Positions 22,699 through 24,366 of a stretch of DNA of 25,736 bases are shown piece by piece (within the stretch, counting starts at the first letter, position 1; the number at the start of each line of letters is the position of its first letter). The DNA is taken from the NCBI GenBank assembly GCA_001304015.1, contig LJUY01000036.1:1-25736 (forward strand). Reading direction: 5' to 3'. A program made the translations under genes and the position numbers. This DNA is from a candidate division Zixibacteria bacterium SM23_81 (GTDB taxonomy: Bacteria; SM23-81). Below the pieces are notes generated by a model, which made no database searches, had not been told where the DNA came from, and saw nothing but the letters and a program-made list of their open reading frames with translations.

Positions 22699-23223
22699 AT
22701 GACGCAGATAACTCCTCAGGTCAAGGAGGCCATTCAAGTTGCTATTCAACTGGAAAAGGATGGCCGGCAATTTTTCGAGAAGGCCGCTGAAGAGACGAAG
22801 AACGAACTTGGCAAGAAGATGTTCCTCAAGCTGGCCTCCGATGAAGTTCGTCACCTGGTGACCTTCGAGAAGATGTTCAAGTCAATTGCCGATCCTAAGA
22901 CTTGGAAGGAGCTGCTCAAGGAAGGGCCACCTCGAGAGCGAATGCCATATTTTTCCGAAAAGGCCGAAAGCAGGAGTCCTGCCGAGAAAGGTGCCGGTGA
23001 GGTGGAGGCCCTTCGCCAGGCATTGGATGTGGAGCGAAAGGCCATCGATTTTTTTAAGGAGGTGGCAAAACAGGCAAGCGATCCCGAAGCCAGCCGGATT
23101 TTTGAGATCATAGCTCAAGAGGAGGTCTCGCATTACGATCTCATTCAAGCCCAGATTGATTCTGTCACCAATGCGGGATTCTGGTTTGACGTGGACGAGT
23201 TTAAAATGGACGGTCTCTACTGA
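22699..23223 (+). CDS. Rubrerythrin-like diiron protein (ferritin-like domain only)
   Basis: 174 residues, one four-helix ferritin-like domain. The iron ligands expected are Glu19, Glu49 with His52 (EVRH) in the first half, and Glu112, Glu142 with His145 (EVSH) in the second. There is no C-terminal rubredoxin CxxC pair, so this belongs to the short rubrerythrin group; an electron donor would have to come from elsewhere. Such proteins reduce peroxide or store iron in anaerobes. Ribosome site GGAGGGG is 7 nt before the ATG. It is transcribed from a promoter about 270 nt upstream through a long leader. The tail FWFDVDEFKMDGLY resembles that of other members. It could act as iron reservoir rather than peroxidase. 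Confidence 0.88.
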   Translation: MTQITPQVKEAIQVAIQLEKDGRQFFEKAAEETKNELGKKMFLKLASDEVRHLVTFEKMFKSIADPKTWKELLKEGPPRERMPYFSEKAESRSPAEKGAGEVEALRQALDVERKAIDFFKEVAKQASDPEASRIFEIIAQEEVSHYDLIQAQIDSVTNAGFWFDVDEFKMDGLY

Positions 23224-23428
23224 GGCTCCGGAGAGCCAAGATTATCCTGACCACCACAACCGTGAGGGGCTCGTCAGATCTTAAAAGCGGCCGACCTGAG
23301 TCGACAAGGGGCTGCCGTTGCGTCAGTTACTCCTTTGCCCTGGGCGCCTTTACTGAGGAGCCTCTCTGGGACTACCTCTGAGCAAGGAAATGGAGAGAAA
23401 AGACAGCTCTTGATAGGGAGGTATGGCG

Positions 23429-24163
23429 GTGATGATTGCGAAGCGATGCCATCTGTTGGCAGTCACTGCGCTGCTGTCCTTGGTTCTTTTGGGAAGCTTG
23501 AGTTCCAGAACAGCCGATGCGGAGGAAGTGATCAAAAAGAAAGATAGGGAGCTGTTACGGAAAGAGTTACGAGATCTTTCCGGTGAGGTAACGATGGTCA
23601 TGTTCACTCAGGAGCTGGAGTGTCAGTACTGTGCTCAGACGCGGCAGCTCCTGACGGAACTGGCCTCTTTTTCGGACCGGTTGAAGCTGATAATCCTGGA
23701 TTTCGTACGTGATAATGAGGAGGCGGAGGGCTATGGGGTGGACAAAATACCGGCCATCGTTTTGCTAGGAGATGAGGATGTGGGCATCAGATATTATGGG
23801 GTGCCCGCCGGATACGAGTTAGCCGCGTTGCTTGAGACCATTCGGGACCTCTCCCTTGGCTCCACGGATCTGGAAGACGAAACGCGGGAGAGGCTCCGTA
23901 CGTTGGCCAAGAATGTGCATATCCAGGTGTTCGTCACTCCTACCTGCCCGTATTGTCCCAGAGCGGTGAGAACGGCTTATAAGCTGGCCCAGGAGAACGA
24001 TTTCATCCGGGCCGATGTGCTCGAAGCCATTGAATTCCCGCATCTGGCAAACAGATATCATGTGCGCGGGGTGCCCATGGTGGTCATCAACGAGACAACC
24101 AGTTTCGTGGGTGCCCAGCCAGAGGCTCTTTTTGTGGATAAGATTTTGGAGGCGGTTGAGTAG
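23429..24163 (+). CDS. Exported glutaredoxin-like protein disulfide oxidoreductase (two thioredoxin folds)
   Basis: About 244 residues. The start is GTG at 23429 or ATG at 23432; the ATG at 23423 is only 1 nt after the GGGAGG ribosome site and unlikely. A Sec signal peptide covers the first 30 residues or so (AKRCHLLAVTALLSLVLLG, cleavage near TADA-EE). Two thioredoxin-fold units follow: the first with CQYC (residues 67-70 counted from 23423) and cis-Pro in KIPAI; the second with CPYC (175-178) and cis-Pro in RGVPMV. This pair of active sites is that of the protein disulfide oxidoreductase family known from Pyrococcus and other thermophiles, usually without a signal peptide. It would shuffle disulfides outside the cytoplasm. 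It is 27 nt upstream of a tiny membrane protein gene. Confidence 0.87.
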   Translation: MMIAKRCHLLAVTALLSLVLLGSLSSRTADAEEVIKKKDRELLRKELRDLSGEVTMVMFTQELECQYCAQTRQLLTELASFSDRLKLIILDFVRDNEEAEGYGVDKIPAIVLLGDEDVGIRYYGVPAGYELAALLETIRDLSLGSTDLEDETRERLRTLAKNVHIQVFVTPTCPYCPRAVRTAYKLAQENDFIRADVLEAIEFPHLANRYHVRGVPMVVINETTSFVGAQPEALFVDKILEAVE

Positions 24164-24190
24164 CCCAGCTGAGAGGAGGAGAGTGGCCTG

Positions 24191-24337
24191 ATGAGCAGAG
24201 GGAGTTTCTTCATCATATTGTTGTTTGTTCTGTGGTTTGTCTTGATGCGTTTCGTGTTGCCTAAGTTTGGAGTATATACCTGAATGAGCAAAGCCTGTGC
24301 TCCCGAGGATCGGGAGAAAACTGAACAGCTAAAGTAA
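24191..24337 (+). CDS. Small single-pass membrane protein, candidate selenoprotein read through TGA
   Basis: ATG at 24191 has AGGAGGAGAG 7 nt ahead, a strong ribosome site. Thirty codons encode a short basic start, one hydrophobic segment (about residues 5-23) and MRFVLPKFGVYT, then TGA at 24281-24283. The same frame goes on for 17 codons (MSKACAPEDREKTEQLK) to TAA at 24335-24337, which touches the terminator. A hairpin with GGA loop begins 17 nt after the TGA. If TGA is read as selenocysteine the product has 48 residues with Sec31 and Cys36. If not, it is a 30-residue membrane peptide. Co-transcribed with the exported disulfide oxidoreductase (27-nt gap), so a thiol/selenol partner role at the membrane is inferred. 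I cannot name a family. Confidence 0.6.
24300..24316 (+). promoter_or_regulatory. SECIS-like hairpin downstream of in-frame TGA
   Basis: CTCCCGA (24300-24306) pairs perfectly with TCGGGAG (24310-24316) around a GGA loop. The loop starts 23 nt after the TGA, within the range known for bacterial SECIS elements (about 16-37 nt), and has G at its first two positions, as they do. Confidence 0.5.
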
Positions 24338-24366
24338 GGCGGAAACTTCTGTTTTCGCCTTTTTTT
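24338..24366 (+). terminator. Rho-independent terminator
   Basis: GGCGGAAAC (24338-24346) pairs with GTTTTCGCC (24351-24359) around TTCT, followed by seven T. The 9-bp stem with one G-U pair begins on the base right after the TAA of the candidate selenoprotein. It ends the disulfide-oxidoreductase operon. Confidence 0.9.

Follow-up and report, generated by a model that had tools for sequence, protein, structure and literature searches.

A 48-residue reading frame in candidate division Zixibacteria bacterium SM23_81 very likely encodes a tiny, single-pass membrane selenoprotein in which the UGA codon at 24281-24283 is read as selenocysteine (Sec), an assignment inferred from sequence alone and without biochemical proof of selenium. 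The gene lies on contig LJUY01000036.1, whose positions 1 to 25,736 were analysed and are referred to here as the window, and it belongs to a family with more than 130 relatives across many bacterial phyla, which share a one-helix anchor followed by the motif LP[KR]xG[VI]xT-U-[ML]xxxC. We further propose that the protein would act as a membrane-tethered redox switch linked to thioredoxin-fold proteins. Taken jointly and weighted towards identity, selenoprotein and mechanism together merit a probability of roughly 0.6. The features of the locus are as follows.

22699..23223, forward strand: gene for a rubrerythrin/ferritin-like protein, upstream of the oxidoreductase
23423..24163, forward strand: gene for a protein disulfide oxidoreductase (profile match to TIGR02187, 272 bits) with CQYC and CPYC motifs, which we take to be exported from our reading of its N-terminal signal sequence
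24173..24183, forward strand: Shine-Dalgarno region GAGGAGGAGAG, 7 nt 5' of the ATG, read from the sequence
24191..24337, forward strand: gene very likely encoding a tiny membrane selenoprotein (48 residues, Sec31 among them), assigned from the frame and its relatives
24206..24262, forward strand: predicted single membrane helix, approximately residues 6-24, FFIILLFVLWFVLMRFVLP, from the sequence and the hydropathy of relatives
24281..24283, forward strand: putative Sec31 UGA codon (codon 31), from the codons at this column in relatives
24296..24298, forward strand: Cys36 codon, the UxxxxC partner, from its conservation in relatives
24300..24316, forward strand: bSECIS-type hairpin with a 7-pair stem and a GGA loop that starts 23 nt past the UGA
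24335-24337, forward strand: TAA stop of the 48-residue frame
24336..24361, forward strand: terminator-like stem-loop followed by a T run, from a terminator scan

A TGA-interrupted frame in a genome with Sec machinery

The translated product reads MSRGSFFIILLFVLWFVLMRFVLPKFGVYT-U-MSKACAPEDREKTEQLK, starting at the ATG at 24191 and with Cys36 placed five residues past the TGA. The initial annotation of this locus had described a strong ribosome site, a 30-codon open reading frame ending in TGA, 17 further open codons with a Cys at +5, and a TAA set against a terminator. This description held to the base: the ribosome site is present upstream of the ATG, and the terminator-like stem begins at 24336 and thus overlaps the TAA, with the caveat that shuffled sequence yields about as many terminator-like sites. 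The stable hairpin that had been noted in the tail is likewise present (CTCCCGA-GGA-TCGGGAG, 24300-24316), but its folding energy taken alone is only mildly unusual when compared with shuffles (z -1.7). The motif pattern has a single match in the window and none in 100 shuffled versions, and all 80 loci fetched with this pattern share the motif, together with the anchor where it is visible; the 48-residue frame is therefore not a product of chance.

The presence of selA, selB, selC (tRNA-Sec) and selD in the same genome had been proposed as a check on the Sec reading, and all four were found on a single contig of the source genome. The selD gene (L160:4105-5145, contig C7) can be read upstream of its listed start as MTKAAG-TGA-GCGGCTAAG, a GUxxK-type motif in the context GUAAK, and SelD of this organism is itself very likely a selenoprotein.

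Relatives, the codon at the Sec column and the SECIS hairpin

A protein search of 290 genomes returned 26 clear relatives besides the window gene. The codon at the Sec column is TGA in 25 of these and CGA in the remaining one, L031; three further candidates (L036, L037 and L042) were rejected as chance matches. A DNA motif pattern with the TGA fixed was then scanned over one genome per species in 84,980 species and gave at least 80 loci. All 80 fetched loci proved to be relatives, with the same motif in every case and the same anchor wherever the upstream sequence suffices; apart from L059, which is cut short, the segment equivalent to the helix has a mean hydropathy of 0.9-2.6. Judged by record titles, the carriers include Deltaproteobacteria/Desulfobacterota, Acidobacteria, Planctomycetes, Gemmatimonadetes and Verrucomicrobia, as well as Spirochaetes, Armatimonadota, KSB1, Eisenbacteria and Obscuribacterales. 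Cultured organisms among the carriers are Geobacter sp. OR-1, Pelotalea chapellei and Geomobilimonas luticola. Two contigs from viral collections, L215 and L216, also match the motif pattern.

The combined set of 134 members, from which L031 is left out, has the core [WY]-x-x-L-x-x-x-[IV]-L-P-[KR]-x-G-[VI]-x-T-U-[ML]-x-x-x-C. Between 24 and 36 residues, mostly 28-29, precede the U, and the first Cys falls at +5 from it in 127 of the 134, a few relatives being without a Cys there. Tails after the U are mostly 15-49 residues long, with three reaching 90, 140 and 183; the two longest are thioredoxin fusions (L041 and L051), in which the membrane-Sec segment runs in frame into a WCGPC thioredoxin domain. 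The L031 copy (L031:1501-1611) has CGA (Arg), one base away from TGA, at the Sec column and retains an MSDGC tail in a genome that has SelB; it could be a decayed gene, a sequencing error or a true variant. In 55 of the 134 members the frame also terminates in TGA, so that the same codon serves as Sec and as true stop a few dozen bases apart within one gene, an arrangement that isolates the role of hairpin position.

A pattern in which TGA is fixed cannot demonstrate a preference for TGA, and the more telling measurement leaves the U codon free. Strict motif matching of this kind across 345 genomes of one phylum, sampled by a search centred on a Geobacter genome, gave 80 matches in 79 genomes, of which 79 matches have TGA; the sole exception has GGC and lies in a genome that also carries a normal copy. 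A profile search of 246 genomes from the phylum of a planctomycete found 23 carriers, three of which (L194, L200 and L206) encode Cys, as TGT or TGC, at the Sec column. SelB, scored at a threshold of E 1e-60, was found in none of the three Cys-form genomes as opposed to 19 of the 20 Sec-form genomes (Fisher p 0.002). As far as observed, Cys forms are thus confined to genomes in which SelB gave no match, which makes the retention of Sec over Cys testable, if on three genomes only.

The same linkage is seen at the level of the family. In a mixed set, SelB was present in 26 of 26 family-positive genomes, the L031 genome being counted among these, and in 17 of 44 family-negative ones (p 6e-8), with the reservation that the non-carriers came from the same search list rather than from a random draw and that related genomes are not independent. 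An additional set had SelB above the cut-off in 29 of 33 carriers, while in the 345-genome phylum enrichment is uninformative because SelB is found in 307 of the 345 genomes. Support for coding of the tail from a synonymous/nonsynonymous count in close pairs (230 third-position changes versus 135 and 115) is weak, since the pairs were picked by amino-acid identity.

As the folding of the window hairpin alone is only mildly unusual, the case for a SECIS element rests on covariation across relatives. A stem of 6 pairs at fixed columns, scored over 17 relatives, has standard pairs in 72% of cells, and its covariation score of 0.615 compares with 0.223 for shuffles, none of 500 of which scored as high, and with 0.11-0.18 for controls in which the partner was slid. 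Published criteria for a bSECIS ask for a G within the first two loop positions, a loop 16-37 nt past the UGA and a stability of -7.5 kcal/mol or better (PMC13188914). The window hairpin meets all three, with loop GGA at 23 nt and -10.0 kcal/mol. A hairpin of bSECIS shape is found in 94% of the 134 members, and one at -7.5 kcal/mol or better in 54%, as against 3.6% of shuffles; the favourite loops are GGA, AGGT and GGC.

These observations bear on two readings in which no Sec is made. The simpler is that translation stops at the UGA and yields a plain membrane peptide of 30 residues, with the remaining tail and hairpin untranslated or part of a terminator. A stop is indeed the usual meaning of UGA, and the hairpin by itself is only mildly stabler than shuffles; however, the motif after the UGA is kept across phyla, including the Cys at +5, a Cys codon replaces the UGA in three relatives, the SECIS covaries, and in two members the frame runs on into a thioredoxin domain. 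We consider this reading all but excluded. It had also been suggested at the outset that the selenoprotein would be refuted if homologues terminated at the first stop codon and bore no resemblance to one another beyond it, and that homologues with Cys or TGA at position 31 should be sought. The former is not the case, as the [ML]xxxC and the covarying hairpin continue past the TGA, and both kinds of codon were found.

The second reading is a stop-start overlap, in which translation would end at the UGA and restart on the AUG of UGAAUG to make a separate 17-residue peptide. The window does read TGAATG, and Met directly follows the UGA in 94 of the 134 members, but Leu stands there in 31 and Ile in 6, so that a start codon is not conserved. 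Moreover, the Cys forms constitute one continuous frame, and an overlap would leave both the SECIS hairpin and the SelB linkage unexplained. This possibility, too, can be set aside with near certainty. The selenoprotein reading of the initial annotation is supported by every sequence test that was run.

Neighbouring genes and a putative membrane redox switch

Profile matches within 1.5 kb of 151 loci were surveyed and counted on the same and on the opposite strand. The commonest neighbours are FmdB zinc-ribbon genes, of unknown role (24 same strand, 1 opposite), followed by thioredoxin-fold proteins (17 and 3), ArsR-type regulators (10 and 0), rhodaneses (8 and 0), YgaP-like membrane domains (6 and 1), TIGR02187-type oxidoreductases (5 and 0, window included), metallo-β-lactamase (MBL) persulfide-dioxygenase-like proteins (4 and 0), OsmC (3 and 0) and CcdA (2 and 4). 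Sign tests on these counts are indicative only, as related loci are not independent. In 118 of the 151 loci no redox or sulfur neighbour family was seen on the same strand within that distance, partly since many of the available flanks extend for only 1.5 kb. The position of the window gene beside an exported CQYC/CPYC oxidoreductase, as first annotated, holds, and an oxidoreductase of the same kind adjoins the family in four further loci; in one of these, L023, a similar rubrerythrin/ferritin-like gene precedes it.

We tentatively propose the following mechanism. The UGA at 24281-24283 would be decoded as Sec, aided by the hairpin at 24300-24316, giving a 48-residue product with a single N-terminal membrane helix. 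Sec31 would sit just outside the membrane, seven residues past the conserved Pro of the LP motif, and would pair with Cys36 (UxxxxC) to form a reversible selenenylsulfide. The protein could in this way serve as a membrane-tethered redox switch or relay that accepts oxidising or sulfane-sulfur equivalents as they reach the membrane, with a thioredoxin-fold protein, for example the neighbouring disulfide oxidoreductase or a thioredoxin, resetting it. Sec coding, the SECIS, the UxxxxC spacing, the membrane segment, the recurrent thioredoxin-fold neighbours and the two fusions are supported by sequence evidence. The Se-S bond is inferred, as are the protein's partner and substrate and the membrane face on which the Sec lies, and we regard a thioredoxin-linked switch as being at least as likely to prove wrong as right.

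Topology bears directly on the choice of partner. Across the 134 members there are on average 1.5 Lys/Arg in the 12 residues before the Sec compared with 0.4 at the N terminus. Under the positive-inside rule this suggests a cytoplasmic Sec side, although the topology is unresolved. That the protein acts directly with the exported oxidoreductase is therefore unproven. A cytoplasmic Sec would fit cytosolic-type thioredoxins and the thioredoxin fusions but not direct contact with an exported protein. The original suggestion that Sec31/Cys36 forms a redox carrier for this oxidoreductase accordingly remains an inference, given this charge distribution and the fact that FmdB, thioredoxin, ArsR and rhodanese genes are commoner neighbours.

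Two alternative functions for a genuine selenoprotein may be considered. In the first, the protein is primarily an acceptor of sulfane sulfur (persulfide): a membrane enzyme, for instance sulfide:quinone reductase, would load sulfur onto Sec31, and Cys36 or a thioredoxin would pass it on to a rhodanese or a persulfide dioxygenase. In favour of this, the Cys homologues L194 and L200 are flanked by an MBL-rhodanese fusion resembling persulfide dioxygenase and by a flavoprotein resembling type III sulfide-quinone reductase (the L194 pair having been profile-scanned), and rhodanese, YgaP-like and ArsR-type genes show the same-strand counts given above. However, these genes are found at a minority of loci, the matches of the flavoprotein and the MBL-rhodanese protein fall below NCBIfam curated cut-offs, and none of these genes adjoins the window gene, so we think this role unlikely. 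In the second, the Sec-Cys pair serves to bind or sense soft metals or metalloids (Hg, As or Cu). ArsR-family regulators in 10 loci could be cited for it, as could a COG0701-type permease gene in 2 loci, of which the L069 copy has a C-terminal CxxC segment resembling a heavy-metal domain. Yet no metal-resistance operon recurs, and the thioredoxin fusions indicate redox chemistry, which makes metal sensing more doubtful still than persulfide transfer. A thioredoxin-linked redox switch remains the reading we prefer.

Relation to known selenoproteins

The family is likely absent from public catalogues. A Pfam/NCBIfam scan of 22 members gave no credible match (best E 0.075 in NCBIfam and 0.011 in Pfam, all to unrelated families), and we found no tiny single-pass membrane U-[ML]xxxC entry in Table 1 of a 2026 review listing 119 prokaryotic selenoprotein families and subfamilies (PMC13188914). 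No tiny bacterial membrane selenoprotein was found in the literature that we searched, but coverage was incomplete and the family may already have been described. It is nonetheless carried, by strict motif, by 79 of 345 genomes in one phylum, yet neither the curated models checked nor the 2026 inventory contains it. A plausible reason for its having been missed can be offered. The TGA in mid-gene leaves an open reading frame of only about 29 codons, and the deep-Sep predictor drops candidates that lack a known Sec homologue, unless two or more Cys homologues rank in the top ten hits (PMC12013277); members of this family would seldom pass that filter. Short open reading frames interrupted by TGA can thus conceal selenoproteins.

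With the known bacterial families (PMC13188914) the tiny protein shares an in-frame UGA, a bSECIS hairpin, a redox-type Sec-Cys pair and co-occurrence with SelB; it adds a tiny single-pass membrane form not found in the 2026 bacterial inventory. A bolder reading would see here an unrecognised, widespread class of tiny single-pass membrane selenoproteins, nearly always with Sec, in which a Sec-Cys switch at the membrane surface joins reactive-sulfur or disulfide stress to thioredoxin-fold partners; the evidence leaves this finely balanced. Eukaryotic SELENOS and SELENOK are likewise small, single-pass, membrane-anchored selenoproteins, and for SELENOS a Sec188-Cys174 selenosulfide and reductase action have been proposed (PMC3628699). 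The likeness is a functional analogy, homology being neither tested nor claimed, and SELENOS differs in having 189 residues with its Sec at the C-terminal end, whereas in the tiny family the Sec comes directly after the helix.

The TIGR02187 oxidoreductase (PDO_seleno_TRX), which adjoins the tiny family in five loci, is itself a listed UxxC selenoprotein family (PMC13188914), but it is a soluble protein of two thioredoxin-fold domains, unrelated in sequence to the tiny membrane protein. At its second active site the window copy has Cys, while those of L023, L082 and L086 (the last being the same sequence as L018) read TPT-U-P[YH]C, that is, UPYC or UPHC. In L207 the oxidoreductase frame stops directly after TPT, at this second active site.
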